Assembly: GCF_039555335.1 (NCBI RefSeq)
Contig: NC_092628.1
Location: forward strand, 78,680,713 to 78,744,712
Source of the DNA: Amphiura filiformis
Taxonomy: Eukaryota > Echinodermata > Ophiuroidea > Amphilepidida > Amphiuridae
Direction of reading: 5' to 3'
DNA length: 64,000 nucleotides
The position numbers were made by a program, and so were the translations under genes. Shown here in pieces: positions 2,411-40,175 of the stretch. Every line of letters starts with the position of its first letter. Position 1 is the stretch's first letter. The notes under the pieces are model-generated. The model did no database searches, had not been told where the DNA came from, and worked only from the letters and a program-made list of their open reading frames with translations.

Positions 2411-3047
2411 TTAAGGGATCTAAAATGAGCGTTTATTACGTTTCGACAGTATTTTTTGTGGGACATGAGAGCACCTCAGACCTATCGAATTGCATTCTGA
2501 ATCTGAAGCATGTCTTTCTGATATCAAATAATTTTCATTTTTGAAAATCACAATATAATACAAATTTTATGACAAATTATAAAAATTTGATATTTTTCAA
2601 ATTTTTGATATATAACAGTCCTCAAGTAAATTATATAAATTTAATGACATATTCTTAAAGTGTATGTAGCAGGGAGGAAAAGCCGACAGTCAATTGAAAA
2701 TTTTGACCTTTCATATTGAAGATATGGATTTTTTCCCAAAAAGACCTAATTTTTTTGGTGTTTTGGGAAAAAAATCCATATCTTCAATACTGAAAGGTCA
2801 AAATTTTCAATTGATCGTCGGCTTTTCATCCCACCTACATACACTATAAAGTTTACTTCAAGTACTGTTAAATATCAAAAATATCAATTTTTAATGATTT
2901 GCCACAAAATGTGTATTAAATTTCAAAAAATCAAAATTATTTGATATCAGAATGACATTCTTCGTATTCAGAATGCAATCGATATGTCTGATGTGCTCTA
3001 ATGTCCCACAATAAATACTGTCCAAACGCTCATACCCCAGCCCTTAA
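2411..3047. mobile_element. TTAA-flanked foldback element 1 (piggyBac/Kolobok-like target)
   Basis: TTAA at 2411-2414 and 3044-3047 flanks a 629-bp near-palindrome. Arms of about 300 bp share TGAGCGTTT, GACAGTATTT, GTGGGACAT, GAATTGCATTCTGAAT and CCATATCTTCAATA; the centre is near 2755. Non-coding and non-autonomous. A decayed copy of the same family is at 42780-43690. Confidence 0.85.
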
Positions 3048-3235
3048 GTGCAACTAAAACTGATATGAGGTTAAGTTTTATCTGTTTGGAATCTGTATTG
3101 ACTATTCTGAGGGAATTACTGCAAACAAACCAACTCATGGCCCATATGGACATGGCCATGGTGTACTGGTTTTCAGTACCTGTTTTCCATGGGTGACTGT
3201 AGGAACCCATGGATTCGATCCATGTACGAGAAGTT

Positions 3236-3530
3236 ACTCGAGAACTCTAGCTTCTAATTTGCACACGATAATTACGCATTCGATGCTAGAGTGCGTTGCT
3301 ATTGTTTTTCGGTCGGACAGCGATGCAATTTCTTGCACCGGAGGTTATTTATTCTTTTAATGTTGAAATTTGGATGAAAGTTATTTCGATGAGTCAACTG
3401 TATCTTTTGAGCAAGATTTGTCAAGAGTCTAAAATTTTGCTGAAGTGTAATTTTAAAGAAATTTTTGACGTGATCACCTGTCATGATCGGCTGTGTTTAC
3501 TTCTGAACTTCCATTGCTTTACACGGTGTC
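3236..3530 (+). repeat. Interspersed repeat family B, copy 1
   Basis: CTCGAGAACTCTAGCTTC, ACGCATTCGATGCTAGAGTG and GAAATTTGGATGAAAGTTAT recur at 8403-8700 and, inverted, at about 3620-3800 and 3995-4140. Several partial, head-on copies make this stretch a repeat cluster. Confidence 0.7.
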
Positions 3531-3619
3531 ATGCTTCAGCGAATCTGACTAGATTTTGAATGCAATGGTCTCTAGCCTAGAATGTGAAGCTATCGGTGAG
3601 CAAATTATTGGCTAGACTT

Positions 3620-4140
3620 CTCGAGCAAACGAGAAGCAATGGAAGTTCAGAAGTAAACACAGTTGATCACAACGGGCGATGGCATCAAAAATCAAAATAA
3701 CTTTCATCCAAATTTGAACAACAACAGAATAAATGACATTCGCTGCAAAAAATGTGAACGCTGTCCGACCGGAAAACAATAGCAATGACCAACGTCCAAC
3801 TTGCTCAAGAAACACTACTTACACTAGCAACGAATTTACTCACAGACGCCCTCGCATGCGTGAGCAAATTCGTTGCTAGTGGATCTCGAGCAAGCTTTGC
3901 GTTAGAGAATATGCTCAAACAATGTCTTGGCTTGCATGCTTGACTTGACTACAGGTTCAAAAGAGGCAAATTTTACTCAACAGACACAGTTTACTCATGA
4001 AATAACTTTCATCCAAATTCAACAACAACAGAATAAATGACATCCGCTGCAAAAAAATGTCAATGCTCGAACAATACCATCGACGAATGCGTAACTATCG
4101 TGTGCACATTTGAAGCTAGAGTTCTTGAGTAATATACAAT
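3620..4140 (-). repeat. Interspersed repeat family B, two inverted partial copies
   Basis: AACTTTCATCCAAATTTGAA and AGAATAAATGACATTCGCTG at 3690-3750, and a second similar run at 3995-4140 ending in AGCTAGAGTTCTTGAGTAA, are reverse complements of the family at 3236. Confidence 0.65.
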
Positions 4141-4429
4141 GTATAACCCGTTTTGTGATTGGTTGTGCAATCATAAGCCAATGAACACGACAGCCTTCTT
4201 CGGTGGCCGATAACAGTGTCTTGGCTTGCATGCTTGACTTGACTTTGTCACATCATGATCAAATCAATGTCAATGACATTGTCATTCAATGAATGTCGTT
4301 GTCATTGACTGAGTCCGAGACTAGTCCCAGTAACTGAGAACATGATGACATACATTGGGTATTATCTGCTATGTCATTTAAATGTCCAAATGATTATGTC
4401 CGTCTTCGATCTTAATACTATAGCTAAAA

Positions 4430-4589
4430 TAATAGTTTCTCGATCATGAGAGTATGAATGACACGGTAGCGCGATCGATTGTGCACGCACAGGAAATGCA
4501 GCGCTACCCAAAGCGTGTGTGGTAGGCGTTGTACGCTAACGCAATTGTCATTGCGTGCCTATTGAGCTCTCATGATCGAGAAACTATTA
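4430..4589. mobile_element. Short MITE with perfect 23-bp inverted ends
   Basis: TAATAGTTTCTCGATCATGA at 4430 is the exact reverse complement of the sequence ending at 4589. A TA duplication (4430-4431, 4588-4589) is the simplest target-site reading. The interior is unusually G+C-rich compared with its flanks. Confidence 0.75.
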
Positions 4590-4840
4590 ATTTAGGCTTT
4601 TAGCTAGTTACTGGACTAAAAAGTCCCGAGACAGAAGTGGCTGTGCCGACGTCAAAAATCGACATGTCCATAGTTGTCCACGCGTCCAACTTAGTTTCGC
4701 CAGCACAGACAGTTAATATATTATTTATTACTTCAATCCTTTAGGGAAAAAAAGCTTCTGAAGTTCTGACAAGTTTTCTGTCTTTCTGAACACGTCACAT
4801 GGAAGTTGATTTGATGAACATCAAATTGTACATGGTAGTC

Positions 4841-4862
4841 ATGATGATGATGATGATGATGA
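4841..4862. repeat. ATG trinucleotide microsatellite
   Basis: About seven uninterrupted ATG units. Confidence 0.95.
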
Positions 4863-5879
4863 CATTAAGCTTATTAAACCATTCATGCCTAACATGCTAA
4901 AGTTATTTCGAATGTCTTTCCTACCTGATGAAAACTGACTTTTTATGATCGATTCATGTGCTAAACCTAACGAAAGCTGTAAAAATGCATGCAGTTACAG
5001 ACTTCTTTGGAGTTCCCATCCGTGCGAAATTCCCATCACTCTCAGCTGACGAGATGTTTTGGCAATTACTGTATTTCTATAAGCTTTACTAGTGTAAATG
5101 AGGGCTTAAAATCGAGTCAAACATGTGTTTTCATGTACATTTCTTTTTTTTTTATCAGAATAACAACTGCACACTTAGTCGTTATAGAAAATTAAAAAAT
5201 GTGAATAGATTAGGTGAGAAAATGTGACCGATTTTAGGATTATTGTTTTTCTTTAAATAAACGCAGTTTCGACAAGTTTCGGAAACTTTTTCCGCCTACT
5301 GCTGTACTTTTGACCAATCAGAATCCCGTATTTTTGGCCCCGCCTATCCGAAAATGACCGAATCAGTTCAATCAACAGCAAATGCCATTTTCACGGCATT
5401 TTCAGGAATGAATTAGCCATAAATTACATCATGATATTGCAAACTTTCTACAAAAAGCCATGGCTCGAGCTGAAATCTGTAAACAAATACCACAAGCGGC
5501 CAAGGGAGTGACAACAACAAAATAATAATAGAGTTTGTGAATCATTCATTCATGTTAATTATCTATGCCCATAAAAGGAAATAAGAACTTGTCCATGTGT
5601 AGTGTTTTTACAATGTGTTATTTTTAATAAATCATTTATTATTCTGTGTTTGTTGTCAAACAAACAGCTTATGATTTAACTTCTTGAAATAACTAATATG
5701 TTAAATCAGTTCACGTGAAAATTAGCAATTAGATGGCTAAATCAATATTTTTAAATCAATTTTGAGAAAAATAAATGCGGAAGTGAAAGCTGTGCTAGAA
5801 ACACACATCAGGCAATATTAGTTTCGTTCCTATCTTTTGTACGCTATCGACTTCAGGCGTTGAAATTCCATTCAATGCT

Positions 5880-5887
5880 TATAAAAG
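5880..5887 (+). promoter_or_regulatory. TATA-like box of WDR1
   Basis: TATAAAAG lies 118 bp upstream of the start codon, so transcription would begin near 5910 and give a 5' UTR of about 90 bases. The stretch from the box to the ATG has no obvious splice acceptor. This rests on position and motif only. Confidence 0.5.
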
Positions 5888-5997
5888 TGGTCGAGGCTGT
5901 CAACCAATTAATTTACAAACTACAGGTGCACACGCGAGCCGTAGCCGTGAATAAGCCTTGTTTCTGCTAAATCGTCAGCATATTTTGCAAATCTGAG

Positions 5998-6013
5998 ATG
6001 TCGTACACATGCA
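5998..6013 (+). CDS. WDR1: WDR1 exon 1 (coding part), residues 1-5 plus one base
   Basis: ATG plus four codons (MSYTC) and a single A, followed by GTAAGT at 6014. The split codon A|AA (Lys6) is completed by exon 2. This exon is too short to find by ORF length; it is supported by the frame, the donor and resemblance to the short first coding exon of vertebrate WDR1. Confidence 0.85.
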
Positions 6014-9000
6014 GTAAGTTTTTAAGATGAGTTTTGATTCATGTAAATTTTTTTGGTTGTCTTGAAAATGTGTTTAATTCAAGTCTGAAGTTGTGGGAGG
6101 TGGCCCGATCGTTCGCGATATACATGTATTGTATAGCATCCCGGAAGTGCACTGAACTGAAACTGAAAAGCACAGCACAGGATCCAGCTGAGTTCATATA
6201 TCCAGGCTGGACACATCACACTACCGTGTGATGTGTCCAGTTCGTCGCCGAACTTGCATATAAGATGGAGAGCTTAGCATAACGGCCTGCCTATTTACGC
6301 TTCCTGAAAACACTCTTGCACATAACATACAAAACCACAAATTCACTAACTTCAACTTGCACTACCGACACCATGAAAAATATTTTAATTATTACCGATC
6401 CTTCAGAATACTTGCAAATATTGGCAGTTTCATAAAATCCTGCTGCTGAAAATCGTAAATTCCACAATCTTCTGTCAGATCCAGGTCAGTAATCACAGGT
6501 GGGCGAATCTACCAGCGTGACAAGACCAGAGATAATAAAAAGGATGAGAGGCCACGCCGTATAAATAGCTAGCCTGATTGGCAAGCGTCGTCGCTGGCCA
6601 GATCTTCTCGATCGTGTATGATGAGTAGAGACCATAGAGCCCTATATAGGGCTCTGTGGAAGAAGGTTCCTAATTTTGAAGCCATGGATAATATATTCAT
6701 TTATACGAGAACCATATTTTTGTACCAATCACAGAACAGAATTTCACTTACTCACAGCTGTCAATCATTCTTGTGAAACGTAAGCTCCGCCTAGTATCAA
6801 GGTCTTCTTCTGCGCATTGGTTGTGCGCATTAACTAACCTCCAGCACAAATCCTGTGCACACGATCAGGTTGGATGGGCGGTTTACGCCTGGTTTACACA
6901 ACAGGAACTGCGATGCATCCTAAACTGGATCGTTTCCGTGTATTCGCATTGCATGGTGGGTAATCGCCTGCCAATTTGCGTAGCTCCACGTTCACAACAG
7001 TTTAAAATCAACACAGGTAAATCCGTATAAAAATTAACATGGACACAAAATTGACATAGCTTATGTAATTCAAATAATAAAATGTAATATTAGGCCGTAT
7101 AAAATTAATGTTTTGGTTCTCGTCCAGAGGATTTTCATGAATTGATGAGGGAGGGAGGTGTTTTTTTTTTTTTTTTTTCAATGTAAAATTAGCATTGTCA
7201 GTAGTTTTCGGTCTTCTCCAACAGTGCTCGAGGAAGCGATGAGGCCCTTTTTTTTTTTTTTTTTTTCAAATGTGAGATTCTGAGGATAAACCCCTAGAGT
7301 ACCACAAAAGACTTGAAAGTGATGCTTGTTCTCTAATAAACTTATTTATATGTATGAAGATTTCATAAATCATTCCAAAGTCTAAAAAATTGAAAAATCT
7401 AAAAAAAAAAAAAAAATCTGACAAATCCCAGAAATTGAGGACGGAGGGGCGAGAACCAAAATATTAATTTTACACGGCCTTATCATGATAGATGCACGTT
7501 TTATTAAAACTTGAAAAGATTATTAAGTCCAATAATTTGTTTGTGTTAGTTTGCACGAGTCACAAAATGGCGACCCATCACGCATTTTCTGCATGTGCCG
7601 ACATTAGTAACTCATAGTGACTGTCCTCAAACGAGCGCCAGTGTGTCTGAGGCCTGATAACGACCCCAGGTAATTTTATGCAGAAAGTTTTCTGGCGAAC
7701 AGCTGCAGGTGACAATTAAACAATGAACACGGCTTGTTTATGTACATGCGTGGGGAGGCTTGTACGTCAGCTGGCGTGTTTTGGACATGTTCGGGCGTAA
7801 AAAGTGTCGTTTTTCTTCATGAAAAATACCAGCGATGACCAGTTTTTGTGGGCTATTTGATTTACAGGTATGTCGGTTCGTCATAGGGTAGAAATGATAG
7901 CTGTACAATTTGTATAACATACAGTTTAACATAGGCCTAAACATTTATGGGCACAAATCGACCTTCCGTATTATGCACAAGTATGTGGAAGTGGCAGGCA
8001 TACTGAGTTCATGAGTTTTTATTATGTTTTGCAAAGCAACAAAGCCCTTTTTAATCGCTGAACGAACAGGTAAATTAAGCAATTCTTGGCCGAGCTCGAA
8101 CATACCTGTTGTGTCCATGTCAGGGATGTCAGTTTTCAGGCAATTGCCTGCTGATTTCAGGCCTTTTGGCAGTTTTGCTACTCCACATTTCTGCAATTTT
8201 ATTTATTTTCAGCCCGTTTTGAGGCTTTATAGCCCAAATTTATGCGCTTTTTCAGGCTTTTCCTGCTAAGTCATTTCAGGCCACTTTCATCCCTGCCATG
8301 TATGTAGCGTACTAAGCGTGTATTGTAAAGCGCAAGGTAAGGTACTGAAGCTGTGATGTAAGTGTGCGGCGCGGAGTGCCGTGCTCATGGTGCATGGTGC
8401 TTTACTCGAGAACTCTAGCTTCAAATTTGCGCATGATAGTTACGCATTCGATGCTAGAGTGCATAGCTGTCGTTTTTCGGTGGGATAGCGGTGCAATTTT
8501 TTTGCACTGGATGACTGGAGGTTATTTATTCTGTTAATGTTGAAATTTGGATGAAGTTATTTCGATGAGTCAACTGTATCTTTTGTGAGGAAGATCTGCC
8601 TATTATTGGGCAGTCTAAAATTTTGCTGAAGTGTAATTTTAGCAACATTTTTGATACAATCGCCTGTCGTGATCAGCTGTGTTTACTTTTGATAAATCGA
8701 GCACTGTCCACACTCTAAAGTATGTTGCTATCATTTTTCGGTTTTGACAGCGTTGATATTTTTTGCAACAGATGTTATTTATTCTGTTTGTGTTGAAATT
8801 TGGATGAAAGTTATTTTGATGAGTCAATGTATCTTTTGAGTAAAATGTGCCTATTTTGAACAGTCTAAAATTTTGTTTTGAAGTGCAATTTAGCAACATT
8901 TTTGATGTGATCGCCTGTCTTGATCGCCTTTGTTTACTTCGGAACTTAATGAGTTTGTCTGAAAAAGACAAGATAACTACCAGTAACAATCAAGGAGATC

Positions 9001-12000
9001 ATGTTTAAGGCTACATGCTCTTTTTGGTTGAAATTTTTGGCGGTATATAATCCCGCCAAAACATTAAAAGTAATCTTTTCCCAAAACTAAATATCATAGT
9101 CAGGAAATTAATGATGCATCTGGTAGCTTAGATCATAACTTTCATTATACTTAGTTGCAATAATCCCAGATAATTCTTGATTTGTTTATACAGAGTCTTG
9201 AATTGTTGATGCTTTTGATCAAATAACATCACTCGGTGTATTTTGAAACTTGAGGCATTAACTCTTCTCAAATTAGCCCCAAATCATAATTTATAATGCA
9301 CGTGTAGCAAACACCAATGGGAATAATTGGACGTTGTTTGCGGAGCCTAAATTTGGTTTGATTTTATTTCACAATAATTCTAAGGTGAGAATTTTGACCT
9401 GACATTTCCTTTTTGGATTTCCAATTTAAATTCATTGATATGTGATATTTTGAATAAATAAAGTGTACGCTTACCTTTCTGCAATACTTCCCGGTATCAT
9501 TGAGCATCTGCTGATAGCCAACATTTTAGCTGAAAACAGTCCCTTCCTATCATTTTTGAACAAAATAGGGTTCAAAAGTACGTACACTGCGCGTATATTC
9601 TGGCACAGTGAGGTAATGAAGAGAGCTATTTACGGTGGGGTATCTATTGTAAGCTATTAGGGTAGGCCTATAGTATATATCTTCCCGCAAGTGACAAGAT
9701 GTGTCAAGCAGGTGCATACATAAGGGCGGTATATTCAAACGGTATTGTCTGGATCATTGAGTATCGATTGCGCACGTATACACGGATGCGTGTGGTCCTC
9801 CCCAGGTTTTGACATGAATTATAAATGACGTCGTGAATGACCCAGCGACCAGCGTTTTCATTTTATGATTACAAAATTAATCGTCGTTTATCACGAGTCA
9901 CAAGAGTCGTACCAGTTCAATTCATCAAAATTAATTTGTATAAAAATGAAAAACAAACAGACAAATAGAGTCATATGTCTTTCTATGACTGTATTCCTAC
10001 CAAAATCTGATTTTCAATTGACAATACACTAGAAACGTGCTTCAATAAAGACCCAATTGAAGCGATTTGGTGGAACATTTTGGCACCTACAGCCTGTCTC
10101 AAAACAAATTGTGCAAGTGGAAAGTGCCATCTTTGGCAATTAGAAAATACTTTTGTGACATGATGCTTACATCATCATCAAGGGAGCAGTCCTAGCTTTT
10201 CAAATACCGTTTGTTTCATTCATTTTGGTTTTGGCAATCCAGAGATCTGCTTCACTATACACAAATGTATGAAAATACTTTTGTGCCACTTTTTAGAAAA
10301 TGAATAGAATGTTATATCCATAATACATTTTTGTACCTGTACAATACAGGCAATAAGAGAACATTCATTTGTAGGATTAGAAATGTTGTAACAATTGCTA
10401 AGAAAAATTTCAAACGTATACGATATCAGATACGCAATATTTCGATGACATGATTTTAATTTTACAACAGAGTGTGCAATATTTATTTGTCTTTTAACAT
10501 GTCTTGAGTAACAAAGAGAACAGTATAGTTACCAGTTAAAAATCATCATTATGTACATGTATTTAATTCTACAGCAGAATGTGAAATATTTATTTAATAA
10601 GTGGGAAAAGAGAATCATATAAACAGAAAAAACAGTAAAAGTGGCACAATATAAACAGAAAAAACAGTAAAAGTGGCACAATATTGACACAAATACAGCA
10701 GCAATGTGATCTTGATGGAGAAAAAACAAACAAAAAATTCATTATAGCATGCTATGCACAGACTTAAACCAACAAGCCTCAGCACTCTTTATGTAACCTC
10801 TTTACAGTTAGGACGCTGGACAACCGATTGTTATTGTTCTGCAAGGCTCACTCAGTCATTTAATAAGGCAATACAAACGATCGAATTTGCTATTCAAATG
10901 AACAAAAATTTTTCTCGGCCAAATGAAAAGCAATAATTTTCATTTTTTCAGTAAATGTCAGAAAAAACTGTAATGCTTGATACTGTATTTTTTTTTTTTT
11001 TCCTAGTGTTAAACTTAGGCGTGAAATTCAGTCATTTAGTGTAAGATTTTTGATTTTGATAGGCTTCAACTCTGCCCGCGAGCCTTTTTTTTGATCAACC
11101 TTTTAGCTTTTCAAAGTAATATAGTTAAGCTAAAGAAGGATTTTTCCCAACTTTCTAACGCACATCACCGTGAGCGATATATCATAGTTTTGTCAGAATT
11201 TCCGTTTTGATTCCATAATTTTTGACTACCAGCTGAAAAATTTTCAAATCCACGCGTGAAATCTTAGGCTAATACTAGCATTGTGGATCGATATCTCTGG
11301 GTGCCCGGCCTGGATACAGTGTTGCCATAACTTCAATATAGCAAAGAAATTACCTAGTGTTTCAATTGTCATGAAGGTGACTGGGTATAGTGCCTTTGTT
11401 TGTGTTTGTTTGAAATTGCTTAAACCCACCGAAAGTCATAATGAAGCAGCCAAAACAATACAAGGTTAAACATGGAAGTTTATAACAACCTATTATAATG
11501 ACCTAAAGGAAAAATCATTTATGGTCATTTTCACAGTAAAGGTGTAACTTTTGATTTTTAGGGTCAAAATTTCAAACCACTTAAATATGTTTCTGTTTAC
11601 TGAAATCATGCATAGAAGCAACTTAAATTCCAGTAAAATAATGTTTCAAGGCTTAAACCTTTTGATTTCTAATAAAAAATTTGACATTTCCATAACATTT
11701 TGGTTAAAATCTAAGAAAAAATGTATTTTACATAACCTCAGAAAATTATGACATGAAAGCTGGAATACATGTGAAATCCCATTCCAAAGTACAATGTAAG
11801 TCAACAGATGGCTCAAAATATGCTAAGGTGTCATATTATAGCCATATATTTTGACATCTTTTTAAAAAAATAATAATTATAGAAATGGAATATTTGCTAG
11901 TTTAGTGGCAAGTTTAGGTAGTAAAGACATAGCATACACAATTTAAGTAAATTCCTTTCACTCTAAATAATAAAAAAATAAAAAAATAGCTGTAAAAATG

Positions 12001-15000
12001 CCTATTTTTACACTTTTATTTGTAACATGCCAAGAGACGCCTTTTTTCAACAGCTTTTAATTTTTTTATGGATCCTTATAGAAATTCATGTGACCTGTTT
12101 CCCAAAATGGTGCAGTAAACCAATCAAAAAACAGAAAGAGGCATTATGAATTATAAGTTAACAGATCAAAAAAGGATTTAAAAGTTTGCCTTTATGTATG
12201 TTACTATTGTCTGTCAAACTTTTGATTGATTTTGAAGTCCCTCAGTTTTTTATAAACAAAGACTTGAAGCATAAACTAAAGGGTAAATCTATTGTAAATA
12301 ACTTCATTTCTCCATATTATAATCAATTTGTAAGTGGCTGCCATCTTTTTTGAACATATAACAATTTTAAAATTTTTCTTGAAATGTCTGTCAAATAGTA
12401 ACATACGCAAGACGGTGCTGTAATTCCTGCTAAACTAGGGTGATACAGCTAATTATGCTACATGACATAGCATTTAGCTCCACCTAGCTTTGTGGCACTA
12501 TCACTTTGTGAGGAGAAGCTTTTTGATGACACAATCCATTGTTAAGTGTTGTCTGTCAAACATTTGTACGCAAGTAACATACGCAAGATTTGTATGTGTC
12601 TGTCAAAAGTAACATACATGTACGTTAAAAAAATTAAAAATCACTTGATGTTCACATTATGATGATAGTTTAGAGTTTATAAAAGTGTTTTAAAACATGT
12701 GATTTATAAACTGCATGTGATCTTTATTCAATTTCCCATCTTGAACTACTGTTTTTGCCAAATTATTATTCTGTATGTTACATTTGACAGACATCTTATG
12801 TATGTTATGGCTTGACAGACACACATATTTTATTTATAACAATTTATCCTCCTTATTGTAATATTTGGACACATTTTTTTCCACAATCAGTTGCTGTAGG
12901 TCCTACACCTAAATAACCACAAAATACCTTATGTAATACTTTATAAATTTTTATTTGATTGCAGAAAATCATCAAAATTGTGTCTGTCAAATATAACGTA
13001 CGCAAGGGCTAGAAAATTAAATTTGTGAAGTAAATGGTCTATAACTTATCTTTCTTTTAGTGTATTATGAACGATATATCGCTCATTCTACAAAATCCGG
13101 TGCCAATAGCCTTTTTTCCATTCTTTGGTCCACAAACACTTTGTCGAGCATTTAGGGCATCAAATATGTCGCTTTTTCTGGTAGAACTCAACGAGATCTA
13201 TCACGGACATATATAGTTTTCCATACTTTAAATGCTTTCTTCAGCCTGATTAACCCTTGCAAAGGCTCAAAAATCGCTAAAAATGCGTTTCCACTGCTCA
13301 AGTGTCACATCTTACCCTGAATATTTTCTTTGAATAAATGCAATTTCTTTACATATTTGTTGTTTTTTAATTAGATAACGCACCATCATATTGTTTATCA
13401 ACATTATTTTTTAGTGATTAAAACGTCTTTGTGTAATTCTAAAATAAATTGCACTTTCCACCAAAACGCTGTGAGCTACGTTACCCCTTTTAAACACACG
13501 TTATTGGAAAGAAGTAAAACAGAGGTATCAATGTAATTTGCGGTTTTTGAAAGGAAACACTCATAGGTTTTAAAAAGAACAGTAAAAATCGTGATGCTGT
13601 AGCATTTTTGGCACAGAAATGTTGTAAACATTGAAATTTCGACCGACCATGTTAAGATTGGTGAGCTACGTTACCAGGATTCTATAGTATGCACTTGTAC
13701 TTCCTAATAATATGTGAAAGCTACCAGTGGTCGAACCCCATTTATATTAGAATTAACCGACATAACGTTCTAACGTTCACAAATCACATCAAAAACATTA
13801 AAAACCAGTGAACTACGTTACTGTGAGCTACGTTACACACTCATTTACGCATTTTCAAAACTTCTATGAAATGGTGAAATCTGTTTTACATTTCACTCAA
13901 GTGATCTTTAGTTTGCTTTTTATGACCTTGGATTGAGTAAAACCAGCCCATTTTGTAGTCGGTAACGTAGCTCACATTACATTGAGTTTTAGTGTTAAAA
14001 ACATCATGACTTCCTGAAAGAAAAATATGCAAGTGGTGTTGGCAATTTTTTATATCTGAAAATAGTGATACATTTACTCTTAAAAACACAAAAAGCAGGT
14101 CTTTTTGAACAACTTTTATTTTTTCAATTTTTCTAGTGGATTGGCACCGGATTTTGTAGAATGAGCGATATGTGCATACTATAATTTAAACCTGGTTGGA
14201 GACCAAAAGAAAAGAGCTGGAAAAATAATTGTGTGTTACACTTTTATGACACCTTAGCTTATTTTGAGCCAGATATAAGTTAAATTTTATACCATGTTTT
14301 GCTATGTTTGTAATTGCAGTTTTGAAAATTTTTAACATCAAGTGTCATTTACAATGGAAATTTCCAAACCTTAAACATATTTTTTAAGTTTTAATTGGGT
14401 TCCTAAAATAATTTGAATGTCTAACTTCATGTGCAAATACTACTTGATAAAAGGAACCTCCCAGCCAAGTTTCACAGAAATTGGAGTTATTTTTTAGAAT
14501 TGGCAATTCAAGCGATTTGTGTTTCGGAGGCTTCAGTTAACAACACAGGTGATCATAAAAGTAAAATATTTGGCTAACTACTACAAGTTGACATTAAAAA
14601 ATAGGTAAAAAATATCACAATTACCAATTTTCATGCTTTGCTTCTAAGTATTGAATTTCAGTTGTGACAAAATTAAATTATCACAGCAAGTCATTTTTTT
14701 TTGTTTTGTAGGCTTCATGTTAACAATTGTTAAACATTGCAGAAGTAGTTTTTTTGAAAACAACAGTGTTGGGATCATCTAAGCTGTTTTTTTCTTGTGT
14801 GTATTGAGTCAATGATTCTATGCGGCAGATATTGTAGATTTATCACATGTTAATTTTTTCACCCATTTGTTAAGTATGGTGTTTTTTGCATGTGAAGCCT
14901 CCGAAACAGGCTTTTTGGGTATCAGTATATTTTTCAAACATTAACCATAATGTCAAAAATTTTTAAATTTATGACATTCTGCACATATCAAGTAATAATT

Positions 15001-18000
15001 ACAATGCAGATATCAGTATGAAACACACCAATTTAGATATGCATAGATGATAATTAATCTTATTGTTGTTTCGGAGGCTTCATTTGTTTCGGAGGCTTCA
15101 ATTGTTAACGGAAAGTTTGTATTGGGTCCCATTTTCAAACGGTGATATATATCTCCACGATTTAAAAACATGTGACTTGAGGATCTACTTTGCTACATTT
15201 TGATAATTAGATTGTATGAGCTCTTTTATTTATATTTGCACAAGCTTGCTGAACAGTTTGTTTCGGAGGCTTCAAAAAAGTTAACGGAAAAACGGCTCTT
15301 TGAAGTCAAGATTTTATAAAAATTTTAAAAGCTTGCAAATCGACTAATTTTTGTTACCCATTTCAAGTTAAGATAACAACTGTTATGAATCAAGAAGAAG
15401 TGAAGAAATAACCAAGAATTATGAACCAAAGCTACACCCACAAAGTTTGTTAACAATTGTTAACGGAAAATGAAGCCTCGAAGCGACAAATATCAAAGTC
15501 CGGTTCTCAAAAATACAGGGCTGTTCACAATTAAATCTAATCTGGCAGTGTTTACTGAACATATGACTGTACTTTCAGGAAAAGAAAAATTATCCATGAA
15601 CTAACTGAAGAAAACACAGGGTTTTACAAAAATGTTACTGTTTTTTATAGTTTTTCAAAATGGCAATATTAAGTACATTTAAGCCTGCTAAAACTGAACG
15701 CAGTAACTCCCAAAGATGATTATGCTACCCAAGGTAGCTGCTAACTAGATGACTTATGTGGCCAAAAATCATGGAATTCTGTGGCTTTATTAGAACACTA
15801 CGGATTAAAATGTTAAAAATCCAAAGTTACACCCTTTACCGTGAAAATGACCTTATGGCAACAATGAGCCTTGCATTGTAAGTCATGGTTAAAATATGTT
15901 GAGTACCCACCCACCCCCATAGGCCTACATAATATTACATACCGGTACCTTATAATATTTATATAGCACGGCTATAGCTATACATTTAGAAAGTAGGTCC
16001 TATAGCGCTAAATTATGACAAATAGGCCTACACAAACCCGAATGCAAGTCTGAAGGGTGTAATGAAAATGCCAACCCGCGATGGGGGGGGGGGGGGGTCA
16101 TTCAAAATTCACCTGGAGATAGGAGGGACAGAAAATTAAAATCCCCTCTAATAACATGCGAATTTTTCTAGGTTTGGACAGTGGATTTTCCCATGGACCT
16201 CATCCTAGGTAAATAAACAAACAAACAAACAGACAAAATGGTTTTCATAATCATGGAATCCATAGCCCCTATAAATTGAAATTGCAGGCTATCACGGAGC
16301 AAATTTTCAAAATTCACCTCATTTACCAGAATTGGGGATTTGGGCTACCAAATCGCTGGTCAGGCATGGAAAAGGGACCTGGTTGACAACAATTGAAATA
16401 TCGATTATTTCTGCTGGTTGCTCTCTAGATAAAGTACTGAGTTTGACATTTTCGGAGCATGAAGGGAAAAAGGGTAAAATAAAAACGGAAATTCTGACAA
16501 AACTATAATATATAGACCCACACAATGTGCTTTACAGAGGTGGAAAATATCTTTCTTTAGCAAACTATATTAGTTTGGGACGCTAAAAAATGAATTCCGT
16601 AAAAAGCTCGCGGGCGAACTAAAGGCCTATAAAAATCAAAAATATCACACTAAAAGACAAAATATGATGCTTGAATTTTAACACCAGGATTTTAAAAAAA
16701 ATGTATATCCAAGCACCAAGTTTTTAACTGACATTACTGAAGAAAAAAAAAATATTGCTTTATATTTGACCGAGAAAATAAATTTCATAGCAAAAAGGTG
16801 TATCTCTGAATTGTGCTGATTTTAACATGTATCGATCGACTTTTAGCGCGACTATGCATTTCTAAAGAATTGGTTGTCCAGCGTCCTAACTGTTTACATG
16901 ATATGTGTACAATTGTACATTTCACTGTATAAAATTTACAAGTATGTTAATTTTGTTTGTTTTTTCGTTGTTAACTAAACATATCTCAAGATGCAAAAAA
17001 GCAAATTGATCAGAATAAACGGCATTTAAAACTAAAACTACGCCCTTGACGTTGATGTACGCATCATGTCACAACAGCATTTTATAATTGCCAAAGAGAG
17101 CGTTTTTCACTTGCACAATTTAAATTAGAACAGTTGAAAAAGCTGGAAATTTGTGAAATGATGGTCCATGAATCCTTTCGTTGTCACGTTTTCCCTATTA
17201 TTGTAGGCATATAAAACGTGTTAAACATAGGGCCTAAATTGGTAAATGTCGAAAGCAGAAATGAAAATAGCCGCTTGTTTATCCACTACGCATGGGGTGT
17301 CTGAGGGGAACATTACCTCCCGCGAGGTAAAATTTTGCAAAATTAAAGTCCAATTGAAGCCATTTGGTGCATCATTTAAACAGAAAAAAAGGACCCGAAC
17401 TCAATTTGCAAAATTTCAAACTAACACTATACAAGTCTTGAGACTCGCAATCAATAAAACATGCATTTTTGGATCGATGCTGACAAAATGTGATGGGCCC
17501 TGCATATCGGGAGTAGGTCCTAAATGCCAAAAGCCGAGAATAAATGCACAATATCAGGTGTTTCTCTATTCAAATCTTGCAATATTTGAACTTGTACGTT
17601 TTCAAGATTTTGTATGCGTTGGACTTTGGGACATTGGATTTGAAGGGGTTGGCAAAGTGCCTGAATGCGTAAATATGCGTGTTTTGTGCGTTAAAGTAAA
17701 CCCTGTTGAATAGGTTTATCTCAGTAGGTACTGAATAATTTGCATTAATGATTTCCCTAAGCATTATATTTTTGCTTATTGTCTCTCCATACAGAATCCA
17801 CCCTTGCCAGTCTTCCAGCAACTACAAGAGGTTATCCAATAGTGTTAGGAGGTGACCCCAAGGGCAAGAATTTCCTCTACTGTAATGGCAACTATATCTA
17901 TATTAGAGACATAGAGGTATGTACAATTACAATAAATCACCCCATGACCAAATTGCAGACATTTCCATGTCATATTATGTAAGTAAGCTTAATACTGGTA

Positions 18001-21000
18001 TGTGCTGGACATCACAAATTGCATGGACAAAACCTATTGTAAACTTCAACTCATCCAGATCATTGCCAAATTATAGTTGAATTTTCATTCAGAACTTGGA
18101 AATAAATACATTTTTGCACAATTTCATGTTATTATTGTTCTCCATTACTACTGATAATCACAGCAAATGCTGTTTAAATCGGCTACCATTTTGAATAGAA
18201 CCCAGAAGTTAGCATATTTTCGCTCTGATGATTAAGCAAGCTTACAATGTAGCGATTTTGCAAGTAAAAATTTGCCTCTAATAAATGCACACCCCTTTTG
18301 AAAAACAGTACTAAATTTTGGCCAAGTTCTTAAATCAAATCAATAATTTTCTTTCACTAAAGAACAAATATCAGTTGATAATTAACATTCCACACTTAGA
18401 ATTTTAAGAAATTGACAAAGATGATAGAAATTACTGGTACATTGGGCATATACAAATGGGGATGATTTTTCTTATTTCTAAATTCAAGTACTAGCCCTTT
18501 CTTTATTATAAGCCCACCCCATTTTTGAAGTGAAATCTGCCATCTAGGGGTGGGCTTATACCCGAGTGGTTACGGTATTACTGACATTACTGTACACATA
18601 GCTTGGGAAGGGAATTTAATGCTATTATATGTGTCTTCTAGTCATGTGCTGTATGTATATCACAAAATAAGAAAAGACATAATTGTAGTGATTCTGATTG
18701 ACACAAATACAGCAGCAATGTGATCTTGATGGAGAAAAAACAAACAAAAAATTCATTATATAAAGCGTGCTATGCACAGACTGAAACCCACAAGCCTCAG
18801 CACTCTTTATGTAACCTCTTTACATGATATGTGTACAATTGTACATTTCACTGTATAAAATTTACAAGTATGTATAATGACTTTAATCACAATTAATGTT
18901 TTGTTTGTTTGTTTTTTCTTTACAATTTTTGTTTGAATAGGATCCTTCAAAGTGTGATGTATATGCTGAACATCAATACCAAACATCTGTGGCCAAATAC
19001 GCTCCCAGTGGTTTCTACATTGCATCTGGAGGTAGGCACTGACATGGGCATATGTGACACGATCAAGGGAAATGAGTTGCATGTCGCTGATATTAATTTT
19101 GAGATATTGGCAAATAAATTGTTCAAATTCTTTTGTTTTACATTGTTTTCAGCGATTGATAAATTGACGTAACTTCGCAAAGGAAAGACGTATCGACATG
19201 GGGTTTTCAGTTTCTGAAAGCTCTCAATGTCCTCTTTAGGAACCTACATGTATGTAAAACATGCGACTCATTACCCTTGATCATGTCACATATTAACCCC
19301 CTTCCCGATCTAACATTGCCTCTGATTGGTCAATTATGTGATATCTTCACTTTAATCACCAATAAGAATGAAGCTTTGCAAATAAAAGGACATATTCACA
19401 CTAGATAGTACACCTGGCAGTGTCTAAACTATAGTAGAAATTTCAACTGAATGAACACAGCCTGACATAGCGTGACGATTTTTCCGTTCACTTTGCGATG
19501 TATGCCAGTGTGTGCGACTGTGCATGAGTGACGCGGAAGTGAATCCAACCATGCCAACGCACTTGTGATTGATTAGAATTGTATCCAAGGTTGTGTGTTC
19601 GCCGTTCGCATTGTAGTTTGAAATACACGATATACGATCGCGGTTGGTTCGAGTACAACTGTTGGATATGTTGAAAGCTGTGTTCATTCAATTGAAATTC
19701 CTAGTATAGCCACCTACCCACCAGTCATTTTGTAGAGCCTGCTTTATGGATCATGATATTATATCGATGAGTCAATTTTCACATTTGCCTGCTGTTGCCA
19801 GGGCGAATCATTTAATGTGGAATGGAGAATGAACTAACAGTGTTTACACTTAAATAGAGACATATAAAGCAGACACACAAGAGGAATGGTATGGGTCCTT
19901 TAAGGAGATCCCAAGGCTTGATATAAGGGGTGTCATTCTCGGGAGGGAGAAAACACCCTGAACTTTTGTTTTTATATACTATTGGTCTTAAATCAAGAAC
20001 TGCCAGACCTATGTAAATGAGATTTATAATATTGGCTAGTAATATTATTATTATTAGTTAGTAATATTAAAATGTAACTGCAGTTTTTTAGTTAAATGAC
20101 TAAAATTGGAAAAATATGGCTCCTACGGCTCCTGCCTTCTCATTGACCTTAATAATTTTTATAAACCCAAGATCAAATCACTAATTGTTTATTATTATTA
20201 TAATGTGATTATTTCAACTGCAGATCAGACTGGTAAGATTCGTATTTGGGATACCACCAATGCGGAACATATACTGAAGGCAGAGTATCAGCCCATTGGT
20301 GGTGTGATCAAGGATTTAGCGTGGTCACCTGATAGCAAACGTATAGTAGTAGGAGGAGAAGGAAGGGAAAAGTAAGTATGGCTACAGTACAAGTACGCAT
20401 ATATGTGATGTGATCAAATGAGTCGGATGCCGGGAATATTGATTTTGAGGTATAGCCAATAATAGTATTCAACTTCCTTTGTATTTTATTGTTCTGAGCA
20501 ACACTAAAATGGCCATATCTCTGGAATTGTAAGTCTAATTATGATGGGGTTTTCAGCAAAATCAAGCTCTGAGAATTGTGTATGTAATCAAATTGAAAAC
20601 TGAATTTTGATTTTGATAGACATCAGACTCCATTTTGAGGTCACAATTCCTCCAAGTACAGGGGGCATATGTGCCTCAATTGAGGTCTAAATTTTAGACA
20701 GTCTATTGCTTCCAAGAACATACATTGGATCATTGACTGTGTGTGACACTGAACATCACAGCAATGAACTGAAACATTGATTAGTTGGTGATTATTCATA
20801 ACCTCATATGAATATAGGCCATGCACAAGATCCAATCAAACATGTTTATTTGCCAAAACACAGAAGATTTAGGTCATTATTTTGTTCCTTAGGGGGTGTA
20901 TGGATTTCAATTGGAATAGCCCATGGCAGGCCAATAATGTGTTGGATATATAAATCATGATCTGTTTGCCAGTAAAGAGCATTGTGTATAGTATGGATGA

Positions 21001-24000: not shown

Positions 24001-27000
24001 AGGTTATTGTGTATAATGGCAAGGATGCTACCAAAGTGTGTGAATTAGGTGAAGGTGGACAGGCTCATAAAGGAGGTATCTATGCTGTAAGTACAATTTA
24101 TGTGACATAGTAGTCTTATTGTTCAGTATGTTATTGGAAGACATTAATTCACAAGATATAGAGAATGATTTATTTCCCACAAGAGTAACATGTGTTTTTT
24201 CTGATGTAACAAGGCATCACAGTTTGTTATGTTTTAGTTCCGAGAAAGTGCAGTCAGGGTTTCCACAGTCCTTGAAAATCCTAGAATTTGAAGACACTTT
24301 TTCAAGGCCTTGAAAGTCCGGGAAATTTGCACAAGTCCTTGAAAATTGGAATTTTACCTAAAGTATAATTTTGACAAAATTTGGGGAGTGAAAAGTAGCT
24401 GTCACTTTCGTTAATACGCAGCTTTTTGTGTTGTGGTAAGTCCTTGAAAATCATTCTTTTGGACCTTGAAAGTCCTTGAAAATTTTAAAGGCTTCAAGGT
24501 GTGGGAACCCTGTGTAATGATCTGTTTGAGCAACAGTCATAACATTTGCGATTATAATACTGGGATCATTATAAACATCCTTGCAAATAATAAAACAAGC
24601 ATGATACATGATTTATTTTTATAAACTTTTGTGCTGTGTCATTTGAGATTCGGTCCTAAAGTAAAGGGTACCATCTACATTTGAGTCACATGTTTTTGCT
24701 AATGTGTACTCCCAAGTGGCTTAATATTACAGAATAATCTAAACTTACTAGCATTTGTTGATAGATTTTATGTGCAAAATATGTGTAATTGCAAGGTCAT
24801 TGTGGAGTCATCTGGGGTCAAATTGCCATATATTATTGCAGGTTCATGGAATTTGGTGGGAACGACCACTGTAGCGAGAAATGTCAAGGTCATTAAGGGG
24901 TCATTCAGGGTCATCCGAGGTCAAATGGCCATAAATTGTTGCATGTTTATGAAATTTGGTGGGAATGACCATAATAGCGAGACAAAATGTCAAGGTCATT
25001 GTGGGGACATTTGGGGTCATCTGAGGTCAAATTGCTATAGATTGTTGCAGGTTCATGAAATTTGGTGGGAACAAAATAATTCTAGTTCTGGTTCATAGAT
25101 AACACCGAACTATGGATGAGAAAAATGCTATTACTTGCAGAAAAATTAACTTGGAATTGAAAATCCAGTGAATATGATATGATCGATAGGTTGATTTTAT
25201 TGTATATATTTTGTAGGTGTCCTGGAGTCCAGACAGCACCCAATTACTCTCAGCATCTGGTGATAAGTCAGCTAAGATATGGGATGTCAAGGAAAATGTC
25301 TGCAAAACGTAGGTATTTTGAAATATATGTCCCCTCAAATTCAATCAAAAGCATAGTTAAAACATAAGCACTTTCAATTTCTTCATAAAATGACCTTAAA
25401 TGTTGAGCATTATAAATAGTTTAAGTTGACACATTTTTGCTTTTCAGATCAGTTTCATGCTTTTCACACTTTTATATTTTACACAAGTTTATATAAGCAC
25501 AAAAAAAATTTAAAAAGGAAGAAATCATTCTGGAATGTATTTCTACCAATACCAACAAGAAAAAAGTGAACTAGTTCCATTTAAAGGCCTATGTTTCAAT
25601 CAACAACTTCATCTCATGTCGACTTCCACACATAAACTTAAGTGGTCAAACTGCTGATATCTGAAGAGAGCTACTATTTTTCTTATTGACCCTGTGTAAT
25701 ATCAGGGCTGAAACTATTTCCCCCTTGGTATTGGCTACGGGCCTATTACCCCAACCCAGAGGGTGTATAGGCATTGCTAGTACCTGGGGAAAAATAGTTT
25801 GCCCTATTTGCTTTCTGATTATGTAGTATTTGTATAATAAACACAGCCAAATTAAAAAGTTATTATATAAATTATTTTGCATAAACTCATCAGACTCTGA
25901 TTAAATGGGGATGGAACTAGTGACGACTTTTTAATTTGGCTGTGTTTACCAGCATGACCTTCATAGATGGATAGCAAGAACTTTCAATCAAAGTGAAAAC
26001 ATGATGTGATAATATTGAATCACACTCCTTTAAAAGCAACCCCATAAATTACACAATGACTTCGAAGTGAGGCCCTTCTCATAAACAAAATTTTATGCAT
26101 GTATTTTGCAGTGAGTTTCAGATGGGTTCTGAAGTAATGGACCAGCAAATTGGATGCTTATGGCAAGGAGAACACATCATCACTGTATCATTATCTGGAG
26201 CTATCAATTACTTAGATAAGAACAACCCAGACACACCTTTACAAATTGTTAAGGTAGGTTGATTGATGATTGTGTACAGATGAGTTCTAGATGGTTATAA
26301 TATGGTTCACCTCAAGTTCGGCAGTGAAGAACATGCGTATCTTGCTCGCCGCAGTATCGAATCGAAGTTTAACAATGCGCTGAGTACTGTACATGCATGC
26401 ATACAGGGGCGGTTTGTCGGCATGCTTGCGGCGCAACCGCATAAAAGCACTGACATCACTAGTGAACTTGAGGTGAACCAAATTATAACAAAGTAATTGA
26501 TCAGTTGGCCTGGTAGTATTTCATCAGTTATATAGATAAAGACATAGACATACTTAGTTGTAGTGGATAAATGTGGCCGTCCACCACAAATAAGCTTTAA
26601 AATGACATTATTACATGTTCCATGTTTTCAAGGAAGTAAAAAAATGAGTGAAACAGTCGAAAAATTTATTGATTTCTATTGTTTTTTGAGAAGTTTTATG
26701 GACCATATCTGAAAACTGTGTACACCTTACAGCCCATTCGTGGTGGGTCACATTAATACCATGATCCTTTCCTGTGTTTCACACATTATGCAGTTTCACT
26801 AAATATATGTCTTCTTATTCGATATAGCTGTATATGTATTCAGCATTGTTAAATGACTATAATGTATTTAGCTGCTTCAATGCAGTGAGGTACACATATG
26901 TGGTGTATGTACAACTGTGCAGTAACTGAATAAGTACAATAATGTATTATTTTGTTCAATTATTTCAGGGCCATAATAAGCTTATCTCAGCCATGACTAC

Positions 27001-30000: not shown

Positions 30001-33000
30001 GAATGTTCCTGTTCATAATTTTCATAATAAGTTTTAAGTGTCATATATATGTTGTAAAATGTGTAATTTCTTTTGAGTTTCGATTTTTTTTTCGAGCTGC
30101 ACAAATACTTTGGGGTTTGACAATATTGTATAGTTGGTGTTACCATTTGCTAACTCTTGATTAATTTGATCTTGTTTTTAAAATTGCTTGTATTCACAGT
30201 ACAATCATAGTATTGATTAAGAAAATAAGTTAGATCATTAAAAATAGACACTACTTTCAGCATGTGATAAATAATAAAATTAAACATTAACCGCACGGCA
30301 GCAGTTCGGCATGAAAGAATGTCAGTTTTGTGAGCCAGGATCCGGGGCCAGGATACCCCCTGACATTATCGTTACGGAATGCATGGGTTTCCACAACACC
30401 TGTTTTTTTGTAGTGGACTATTTGCATGGTGTGACACTGCCAATAATGAACTAATCAATAGTCATGAGGTAATTTACTATATCGATAACAAAATTAATTT
30501 TATGCTTGTCATTGATGACACTTACAGGTGGGTGGTTAGATTTTTTTGTATTTTTTTTGTAGCTCAATTTAGATGCCTGTGCCAAAATAATCTGATTCCA
30601 AGTTTGGAGGTAAATTGCTCTAGCCGTTTTGATATTAGAAGTAAAAAACATGTTTCACTACAGCCAATTCAACAGTATGTGTGGTATACCACAATTTGGG
30701 TTGAGGCTATCACTTTTTCGTTCTTAACAACTAAATAGAATATATTTTAGGCCTAAAATTTCACCTGGATTATGAGGAACATTATGAGCTTTCTTCTGAT
30801 GCCAAAATCTCTATTTTGATAGGAAAAAGTGGGGGATGAGGTTGTCGATATGATCACCCATCTTTAATACAAAATGTGAATTTATTTGTATCAAAAGTAC
30901 GATGAACACAATGAAATGGTAAATTAGTCAGATGACTTGATAATACTTTATTGACCACACGGTAACTGTAAGCTACCTGCAGGGTTTCAAATTCGAGGAG
31001 TACAACTAGGAGAACCAAAATTGGTTCTCGTAAGCTTCCAATTGTCAGATTGCATGTTGTGTAATATTTTACCTTTTAACAACGTAAATTGATTTAATAA
31101 TCTCATTTATCCAAAAATATAATTGTGAAATGTTGGGAACTATTGAAAAGGCAAAGTTTTCTTCATTTCAGCTGTCAATTTATTGTACGATCATGAACTG
31201 GAATCCATGGCCCATGCATGTACTTTCAATGTTTATGTTACTCGACCAAGCGTCTCCTTTGGTTGCATTCGCTGTAGAAGTGATGATGTAACAGGATTCT
31301 ACCATAGTAATACTAGATGAATACAATTTTTGAATATATCACATCACCCTGCACTACAATGTTCATGCGAACCAACTGTTCTCGCAAAAGCCCTTTGCGA
31401 GAACCTAAACAGGTTCCCACAATTGATTGCGAATTTGAACACCTGTTCCCGACACATAAATACTTCTGATCGGCAGTGAACACCCTGTATGACTTTGACT
31501 GTTCTTTCAGGATACCAGGATCTATATCTACTCATTGGACAGCAGTGATGTGTTGACAGAAAAGACACAATTGAAGGTTGGAGGAGCTGTCAACACTTTG
31601 GCCTATTCACCAGATGGTAAATTCCTGTGCTCTAGTGGTCAAGACAAAGAGGTCTCCCTGTTTGATTTGGGCAACAATTATGAGGTAGGTCAATGACTTT
31701 TCTTTTGGAAGATTTTCTTCCAGTTTTCACAGAGACTTGTCAACTCATCAAAACTATTCAATGTTTGTTGATGTCTTACCCTTAGGCAAAACAAATTGTT
31801 TGCTTGTCCATATGGTCGCATGTCATAAGTTGGGTATGCTAAAAGGGTGGAGGGATTACACTTTTCTGAAAATTGCGATACAAATTTGATTGGCTTTCCG
31901 TAACCCTATATCCTACAGCAGTGGTTGATACCTCATTTTAAGCCTAATATTATACTTTTTCAGTCTACTGAAGCATATAATTATACATTATTCAGTAAAA
32001 AAATCACATCAGTTGAAATAAAAAATGCCAGGGGTGGAGGAGCAGGCGGATGTGGAGCAGGCGGATGCGGGAGTGTGCAATAGGGCATATGTGAAAATTC
32101 ACATGTCAGCATGTTAAAACTACTGGTTACTTTTTCAAATCTAGGGAGGGTATGATGTATTGACAGCTTTGAGTGTTGAATTTGTACAACTAAAACAATT
32201 ACTGACTACTTAAGGTGGCGCTACACCCTCTGATACATTTTGTGACAAATTTTGCATTTTTCTCAAAAAGTAACTACACACTGGTAACAAAAGTTATATG
32301 TATATTATAGGGGCAAGGAATCCAATTACTTCACTAAAATTTCAGTGATTTAAGACAAGGGATTCATTATATATGTTAAGAAGTGAGGTACATTCTAGCG
32401 GTACCTCTTTTCTTATCATAAATAACGTACCGCTTAGATTGAGTCACTGAAATTCCAGTGTAGTAACTGGATTCCTTACCCCTATAATATACATGACTTT
32501 TGTTACCAGTGTGATATTATTTTTTGAGAAACATGCAAAAATAGTCACAAATTTATCAAGGTGTGTAGTACCACCTTAAAGGGTTATATGTTCCATTTTT
32601 TCATTTTTAATGAAATCCTAGTTGAATTTCAGTATTTTTAGCAAATATGCTAATGTACAATTCTCTTCTTGATATTCATTTCCTCAATAATAGAATAACC
32701 ATCTTGCTAATTACTCATAAAAAGGTCATTGACCTTTACAATGTAATTAACATACATACAATTATTTTAAATAGTTCATTTGAAGCATTAATGTTTTGAG
32801 AACATATCCTCCAGATCTGATGACATTCTTGCATAAAATAAAAATTTTACAGTCATTTTTGTAATTGAGGTCCGATTTGAGAAAAAACGCATTTGAAAAT
32901 TGAGATTTACATAGACGCCTGTGTATTAATTAATTAGTAATTAAGCATTATCTCAAAAATCAAGCAGGTGTTAAGGTTAAAAATGGTGTTAATTATTAGA

Positions 33001-39055: not shown

Positions 39056-40175
39056 ATGCCTCCACCGCGAGGCATACTGTTTTTGCAATGTCCGTGCTTC
39101 CGAGCTTCCGTCCTTCCGTCCGGATGCGATATCTCGGGCATGGATGGGCGGATTGACTTCAGATTTTCAGGATAGGTGGGTCATGGTCAAAAACTCTGGC
39201 TACTTTTTTTGGGGTGAGGTTCAAGGTCATATACTGAGGTAAAAGGTCATTTGAGGTCAGAGGGCCAATTTTCCTTATTTACCTCTTTTCTCGGAGACTG
39301 GGGGTCGACGTTCCTCAAACTTGGTGGGTGGGTGCATCTTGACCCCAGACAGAACAAGTTTATATTGGTTAGTGGGTCAAGGTCTCCTGAGGTCATGCAG
39401 GGGTCATCTGAGGTCAAATTAGCAAAAATAGTCATATGGCCATGAAACTTGGTAGGTACAGTCAACATTTAGAGCCAAATTTTTGAAAGGTCATTTTGGG
39501 GTCATCTGGGGTCACCCAGGGGTCATCTGAGGTCAAATTAGTAAGAACTGTTGTATGGGCATGGAACTTGGAGGGTACAGTCAACATTCAGAGCCTAATT
39601 TTTTGAAGGTCATTTTGGGGTCATCCAGGGTCACCCAGGGGTCATCTGAGGTCAAATTAGTAAAAACTGTCGTATGGGCATGACATTTGGTGGGTACAGT
39701 CAATATTCAGAGCCAAATTTTTGGAAGGTCATTTTGGGGTCATCTGAGGTCATCCAGGGGTCATCTGAGGTCAAATGAGTAAAAACTGTCGTATGGGCAT
39801 GAAACTTGGTGGGTACAGTCAACATTTAGAACCAATTTTTGGAATGTCATTTTGGGGTCACCAGGGGTCATCTGAGGTCAAATTAGTAAAAACTATTGTA
39901 TGGGCATGAAAGTTGGTGGGTACAGTTAACATTTAGAGCCTAATTTTTGGAAGTCATTTTGGGGTCACCAGGGGTCATCTGAGGTCAAATTAGTATAATT
40001 ACTATATGGGCATGAAACTTGGTGGGTACAGTCAACATTTAGAGCCAAATTTTGGGTGGTCATTTTGGGGTCACCCAGGAGTCATTGAAAGGTTGTTTTG
40101 GGGTCATCCAGGTGTCATCTAAGGTCAAATTCAGTATCAACTTGTGAATTCCACATCACTCCCTTTGGTGGAGGC
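39056..40175. mobile_element. GGTCA-array element with ATGCCTCCACC ends
   Basis: ATGCCTCCACC near 39057 is mirrored by GGTGGAGGCAT near 40160. The left end is followed by CGTCC-rich sequence and the interior is mostly the tandem array described separately. It abuts the tRNA-derived sequence. Confidence 0.65.
39290..40135 (+). repeat. Tandem array, 119/107-bp unit rich in AGGTCA
   Basis: The landmark GAGGTCAAATTAG recurs at 39410, 39529, 39648, 39767, 39874 and 39981, with a variant at 40121. That is three periods of 119, two of 107 and one of 140. Each unit carries ATGGGCATGAAACTTGG, GGGTACAGTCAACATT and three to four GGTCA words. Confidence 0.92.

Follow-up and report, generated by a model that had tools for sequence, protein, structure and literature searches.

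A non-autonomous DNA transposon in Amphiura filiformis whose interior carries three unrelated arrays of short motifs

A 64,000-base-pair (bp) stretch of the Amphiura filiformis genome (contig NC_092628.1, positions 78,680,713 to 78,744,712; hereafter, the window) contains a segment of about 6 kb in which three sets of short repeated motifs follow one another between inverted ends. What kind of genetic object is this segment, and what could the three motif arrays inside it be for? The analysis described below shows that the segment is a mobile element that is ordinary in kind (non-autonomous and foldback-like) and unusual in its interior. Two of the results, an empty form of the insertion site and a regular spacing of motif sites whose spacers do not align, are new with respect to an earlier, sequence-only reading of the same DNA. 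The features are collected in Table 1, with positions counted from the first letter of the window.

The insertion and its empty target site

The segment ends in inverted termini that are identical at 21 of 21 positions and are of the CAG...CTG type (CAGTTAGGACGCTGGACAACC), and it is bordered on both sides by TTTA. Self-comparison of the window revealed a paralogous, uninterrupted version of the target 1.8 kb downstream of the element. It matches the left flank (10683-10806) at 94.5% and the right flank (16890-16951) at 96.8%, and TTTA occurs once at its junction, CTCTTTACATGATATG. If both ends of the element are taken to be equal, the target duplication is 4 bp long; the next two bases also agree, so that it would be up to 6 bp long if the ends were unequal. 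We conclude that 10805-16892 is a DNA transposon insertion, which the empty form of the target displays directly. No second copy of the element turned up in the 64-kb window.

The longest stop-to-stop frame in the element is 99 codons. A Pfam search was conducted with 24 frames, the four longest in each of the six reading frames, all of at least 47 codons. None of the 24 produced a transposase match or reached the Pfam cut-off (shorter fragments were not searched), and two scores, for Colipase (E 0.049) and DUF3443 (E 0.029), fell below it. The sequence-only reading had proposed a non-autonomous transposon of 6.09 kb with perfect 21-bp termini and no transposase-sized open reading frame; each part of this proposal holds, and the empty site strengthens it.

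A 40-residue peptide read from DNA at about 17.9 kb has two matches among solved chains: one named WD repeat-containing protein 1, at E 2.6e-8, and, less strongly, one named actin-interacting protein 1, at E 1e-4. On this evidence the element precedes an exon of a WDR1 homologue, apparently a gene for an actin regulator, and probably sits in an intron. The DNA on either side of the element (9948-10322 and 16902-17283) itself forms an inverted repeat, with 79.5% likeness over 127 bp at 10106-10232/16997-17121, and the element may thus have landed in an older palindromic repeat.

Table 1. Coordinates of the element, its parts and its empty target site (a dot marks features without strand)
Feature	Coordinates	Strand	Remarks
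Whole non-autonomous element	10805..16892	.	6088 bp
Left TTTA target site duplication	10801..10804	.	empty paralogue reads CTCTTTACATG
Right TTTA target site duplication	16893..16896	.	
Left terminus	10805..10825	+	CAGTTAGGACGCTGGACAACC
Right terminus	16872..16892	-	perfect inverted copy, 21 bp
Paralogous empty site	18697..18878	+	contiguous, single TTTA
Left outer arm	10805..11248	+	pairs with 16442-16892, 70% over 467 aligned columns
Right outer arm	16442..16892	-	pairs with 10805-11248
Inner arm block	11520..11560	+	pairs with 15814-15855, 90%
Inner arm block	15814..15855	-	partner of 11520-11560
Inner arm block	11790..11835	+	pairs with 14245-14289, 80%; 27-bp core 96%
Inner arm block	14245..14289	-	partner of 11790-11835
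Perfect 32-bp inverted end of array b module	13076..13107	+	100% to 14140-14171
Perfect 32-bp inverted end of array b module	14140..14171	-	partner of 13076-13107
Array a: TGTCTGTCAAA + TAACATACGCAAG	12191..13006	.	five site groups, ~197 bp apart
Array b: GTGAGCTACGTTAC	13471..13975	.	four site groups, ~164 bp apart
Array c: GTTTCGGAGGCTTCA + GTTAACGGAAA	14521..15484	.	six site groups, ~189 bp apart
Weak array c motif copies	11054-11068, 11421-11435, 11442-11456, 15679-15693, 16573-16587		3-4 mismatches

Inverted arms and motif arrays

The inverted likeness between the two halves of the element consists of four nested blocks, which occur in the same order on both sides. Three regions between the blocks are unpaired, and each holds one array. 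Array b occupies the central loop. By block coordinates, array a lies on the left in about 1.24 kb (11836-13075), opposite a stretch of only 73 bp, and array c on the right in about 1.5 kb, opposite 229 bp of the other arm. Tandem Repeats Finder reported no tandem repeats with a score of at least 50 in the arms. Perfect or nearly perfect islands on a background of 70% suggest either constraint or, for the innermost block, a younger age. The degenerate arms of more than 400 bp and the perfect 32-bp ends around array b had been predicted correctly. The description of the element as foldback applies in the loose sense, the arms being long, inverted and degenerate, but the arms differ from those of classical foldback elements in that no tandem repeats were reported in them. 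The DNA around array c is indeed carried by one arm only, but array c is not the sole such case, since array a is likewise one-armed.

Array b is built of a single 14-base motif, while aligned sites of arrays a and c reveal two-part motifs whose gap and orientation vary. In array a, TGTCTGTCAAA is present in six exact copies and one copy with one mismatch (12208-12991; two of the seven on the minus strand), and TAACATACGCAAG in two exact copies, one copy with one mismatch and three inverted copies with two to three mismatches. At five of the seven sites, TAACATACGCAAG, or a shortened or varied form of it with a TAACATAC or TAACGTAC core, lies 2-3 bases behind TGTCTGTCAAA; the exceptions are the site at 12550, with a 14-base gap, and the site at 12208, with its partner upstream and inverted. 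Array b contains four exact copies of GTGAGCTACGTTAC and one with a single mismatch (13471-13975; 1/5 on the minus strand). In array c, there are five exact copies of GTTTCGGAGGCTTCA and one with two mismatches (14521-15274; 1/6 on the minus strand), and a seventh site on the minus strand (15470-15484), which lacks one base, was accepted by eye. GTTAACGGAAA has three exact copies. A GTTAAC core follows GTTTCGGAGGCTTCA after 0-5 bases at four of the seven sites, two of which have the full GTTAACGGAAA; the inverted site 15470 has a partner in the orientation opposite to its own, and sites 14893 and 15068 have no GTTAAC-core partner of their own. Each array includes at least one close doublet.

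The element contains 15 different 12-mers present in at least three copies, versus a mean of 0.1 in 50 shuffled sequences, and 11 different complex 13-mers with the same copy number, versus none in 50 shuffles. Under a stricter filter, 13 repeated 12-mers were counted in the element; among 46 equally long, overlapping windows taken outside it, one scored higher (25) and three scored 9. This one window is what could be cited in favor of a chance mosaic, i.e., AT-rich intron DNA with coincidental repeats. However, the window in question (3001-9088) contains dispersed repeats of about 90-290 bp, and for the element as a whole a chance origin is refuted by the empty site, the perfect ends and the 13-mer count, so we give it practically no credence. 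We conclude that the three arrays are real and mutually unrelated. The sequence-only reading had described three clusters, each with a consensus of its own and sites in both orientations, and this description is borne out by motif counts far above those in shuffled sequences and by the 5 of 19 sites that are inverted.

The sites are spaced at fairly regular intervals. With neighbours in doublets merged, the intervals between site groups are 193.5, 180.5, 216 and 199 bp in array a, 190, 154.5 and 146.5 bp in array b, and 182, 190, 184, 183 and 204.5 bp in array c (means of 197, 164 and 189 bp, respectively). When hand-drawn groups were compared with uniformly distributed points, which were not merged in the same way, P values of 0.0004 (a), 0.016 (b) and 5e-6 (c) were obtained; a fixed merge rule applied also to the random points gave 0.0067, 0.057 and 0.0016, respectively. 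Joint Fisher P values for regularity were 3.9e-5, 7.4e-5, 7.2e-5 and 6.6e-4 at merge cuts of 20, 30, 50 and 70 bp, and a phase test that requires no merging gave 0.0002 with one common period and 0.00015 with separate periods. All of these tests are post hoc, having been devised after the regularity had been noticed.

Regular spacing near a satellite-like period could mean that the arrays descend from tandem repeats of about 165-200 bp inside the element, whose monomers have decayed except for a short box. Such repeats have a precedent in Tetris, whose foldback arms contain tandem repeats of about 220 bp (PMC4079207). Spacer likeness was scored pairwise after the motifs had been masked, with the motif positions as anchors for the flanks, and in none of the six sets was it above that for shifted anchors from the same DNA, a control in which some pairs can overlap and so raise the control likeness. 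An earlier control, which differed from the arrays in local composition, placed 2/19 (upstream) and 4/19 (downstream) pairs of array a above its 95% line, as well as 0/6 and 0/6 pairs of array b and 1/20 (upstream) and 0/20 (downstream) pairs of array c; one upstream and two downstream pairs of array a were above the 99% line. Mean likeness was 12.08 downstream of array a sites and 12.43 upstream of array c sites, versus 9.93 in this control, a mild excess in 2/6 sets. Faint likeness is thus possible, with no clear relation between the spacers apparent from these scores. Tandem Repeats Finder gave only two short doublets within the element. The alignable head-to-tail monomers of an ordinary tandem satellite were not found, and such a satellite is set aside on account of the unrelated spacers and the inverted sites. 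Because the spacers are unrelated and 5/19 sites are inverted, decayed tandem monomers are the weaker reading, and we regard this origin as quite improbable. Fairly regular spacing of sites between unrelated spacers favors constrained protein-binding sites over ordinary tandem satellites and makes such a role of the arrays plausible.

Possible binding sites or stacked elements

The reading we prefer, with a probability of roughly 0.45, is that of a cut-and-paste transposon that has no transposase, is moved in trans, and carries the arrays as three sets of binding sites. The element would have lost its transposase, or would never have possessed one, and would be mobilized by a transposase encoded elsewhere in the genome. 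At insertion into TTTA, 4 bp were duplicated. The ends and the islands in the arms may have stayed alike because the foreign transposase must recognize them. Each array would provide sites for a different DNA-binding protein with a long footprint, either an accessory transposon protein or a host factor, and each nucleosome repeat would hold roughly one site or doublet. Parallels are the subterminal repeats of CACTA elements and the arms of Galileo, but here the arrays are interior. The bound proteins might hold the 6-kb interior open, fold it so that the ends meet, or control silencing. A more specific version, in which the three arrays are nucleosome-phased, each is bound by a different protein, and transposition or silencing depends on combined occupancy by all three factors, is very doubtful.

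Several observations weigh against the binding-site interpretation. No binding protein, partner transposase or second copy of the element was seen, the last having been sought in the window. The arrays are at least about 1.4 kb from the ends, unlike subterminal sites. Weak sites of the array a or b type are not in excess in the arms (10805-12150 and 15501-16892), and a and b are therefore unlikely to be sites of a transposase that binds the ends. The regularity was tested post hoc and on 19 sites, and for single arrays P was as weak as 0.22 (a, cut of 20 bp) and 0.09 (a, cut of 30 bp; b, cut of 70 bp). The slight rise in spacer likeness that the earlier control gave for two of the six sets must also be counted here. 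A separate observation is that weak sites of the array c type are more frequent in the arms than expected (five observed versus 0.23; none of 60 shuffles was as high), c being one of five motifs tried, post hoc. These could be decayed sites.

Alternatively, the element may be a nested composite, in which two non-autonomous elements of 1.1-1.5 kb, one carrying array b and the other array c, would have inserted into an older element whose loop contained array a. Each array would then be the set of internal repeats that belongs to its own element. The separate motif of each array fits this scenario, as does the array b module, whose perfect 32-bp ends look younger than the outer arms with their 70% likeness. 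So do the unequal lengths of DNA that arrays a and c and the facing arm segments occupy, and the 229-bp left stretch, which aligns only unclearly with the right-hand DNA to the left and to the right of c (P 0.14 and 0.18). The window also contains a second, small element in which an internal motif is repeated (24255-24512). On the other hand, the ends of the b module are not accompanied by a clean target duplication, their flanks being ATAT/AT within a self-complementary AT stretch, and the inverted likeness continues past them. No clear inverted ends were found around array c (best P 0.01, in an alignment that includes motif sites). Random nesting would also not be expected to produce the observed layout, in which 1386 bp separate array a from the left end and 1408 bp separate array c from the right end, with array b close to the middle (midpoint at 13723 versus 13848.5 for the element). 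This symmetry, noticed post hoc, mildly favors an interior built as a whole. We consider the nested composite somewhat unlikely. That array b by itself is a captured module is possible; no clear target duplication can be read from the AT-rich DNA that flanks it.

Known systems and other features of the window

FB elements and the sea urchin TU elements are foldback elements whose arms are built of tandem repeats. The A. filiformis element differs in that no tandem repeats were reported in its arms and its interior contains arrays of three unrelated motifs. CENP-B boxes are short conserved protein sites located, at roughly nucleosomal spacing, in alignable satellite monomers; the spacing of short sites is similar, but the spacers of the element, unlike CENP-B monomers, cannot be aligned. 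Among transposon superfamilies, piggyBac and Kolobok duplicate TTAA rather than the TTTA seen here, and Helitrons are excluded by the inverted ends and the target duplication.

Other groups were compared using published descriptions. Galileo, whose arms contain several transposase sites, combines long inverted arms with several internal protein sites, and the element shares the long inverted arms (PMC3688188). Tetris resembles it in having no transposase, long inverted arms and internal repeats (about 220 bp in Tetris), but the Tetris target duplication is given as 8-10 bp, and the 4-bp (at most 6-bp) duplication does not fit a Mutator-type foldback element of this kind (PMC4079207). Subterminal regions of CACTA elements are recognized by 10-20-bp units that occur both directly and inverted (PMC8978399), and the arrays consist of such units. 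However, the element ends in CAG...CTG and not in CACTA, and its arrays are of three kinds, have mean spacings of 164-197 bp and, lying at least 1.4 kb inside, are not close to the ends as in CACTA/EnSpm.

In Repbase, terminal sequences and target duplications are the main basis for assigning non-autonomous elements (PMC4455052). The 3-4-bp duplication of Chapaev (CMC) agrees with TTTA, but the required termini are CAC...GTG, and Chapaev was rejected (PMC4079192). AcademX duplicates 3-4 bp, as the element does, the element itself having no transposase to compare (PMC10045372). The 4-bp duplications of Sola2 are AT-rich, AWWT in one group and ATAT, AAAT or ATTT in another (PMC3627910); TTTA is AT-rich and 4 bp long, yet is not AWWT. 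By duplication length alone, membership in AcademX or Sola2 is possible.

Database searches with the terminus 19-mer gave no matches in viral_contigs or genome_contigs, and the two-part motifs of arrays a and c and the end of the b module gave none in viral_contigs (the b motif alone was not scanned); a plasmid collection also gave no match. Since these are viral, bacterial, archaeal and plasmid collections without animal genomes, the blanks mean little. In literature searches by motif strings and the terminus 19-mer, the matches listed involved only TGTCTGTCAAA or CATACGCAAG and, by title, unrelated subjects. Searches on foldback repeats, on superfamilies and duplication length, and on binding sites yielded background only.

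Elsewhere in the window, the small element at 24255-24512 has CAGGGTTTCC/CAGGGTTCCC inverted ends, which we take to resemble hAT ends, and contains AGTCCTTGAAA four times; it offers another, simpler instance of a non-coding element with an internal motif that recurs. Tandem arrays at 39398-40085 (periods of 119/107 bp) and 24798-25072 (106 bp) are related via common GGTCATCTGAGGTCA words. A 965-codon open frame on the minus strand (49473-52370) encodes C2H2 zinc fingers (Pfam zf-C2H2, E 7.1e-26), and further long frames adjoin it at 52303-55172, also on the minus strand. Four further stretches, each about 230-590 bp long, are self-complementary (2439-3028, 32210-32579, 35723-35958 and 43090-43323).

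If the arrays are conserved between copies of the element, a non-coding transposon would keep long recognition sites in its interior at nucleosome-like spacing, and each consensus could be used as bait for its own protein. If instead the element is a nested composite, it would cleanly illustrate the stacking of elements that each have an internal repeat set of their own.

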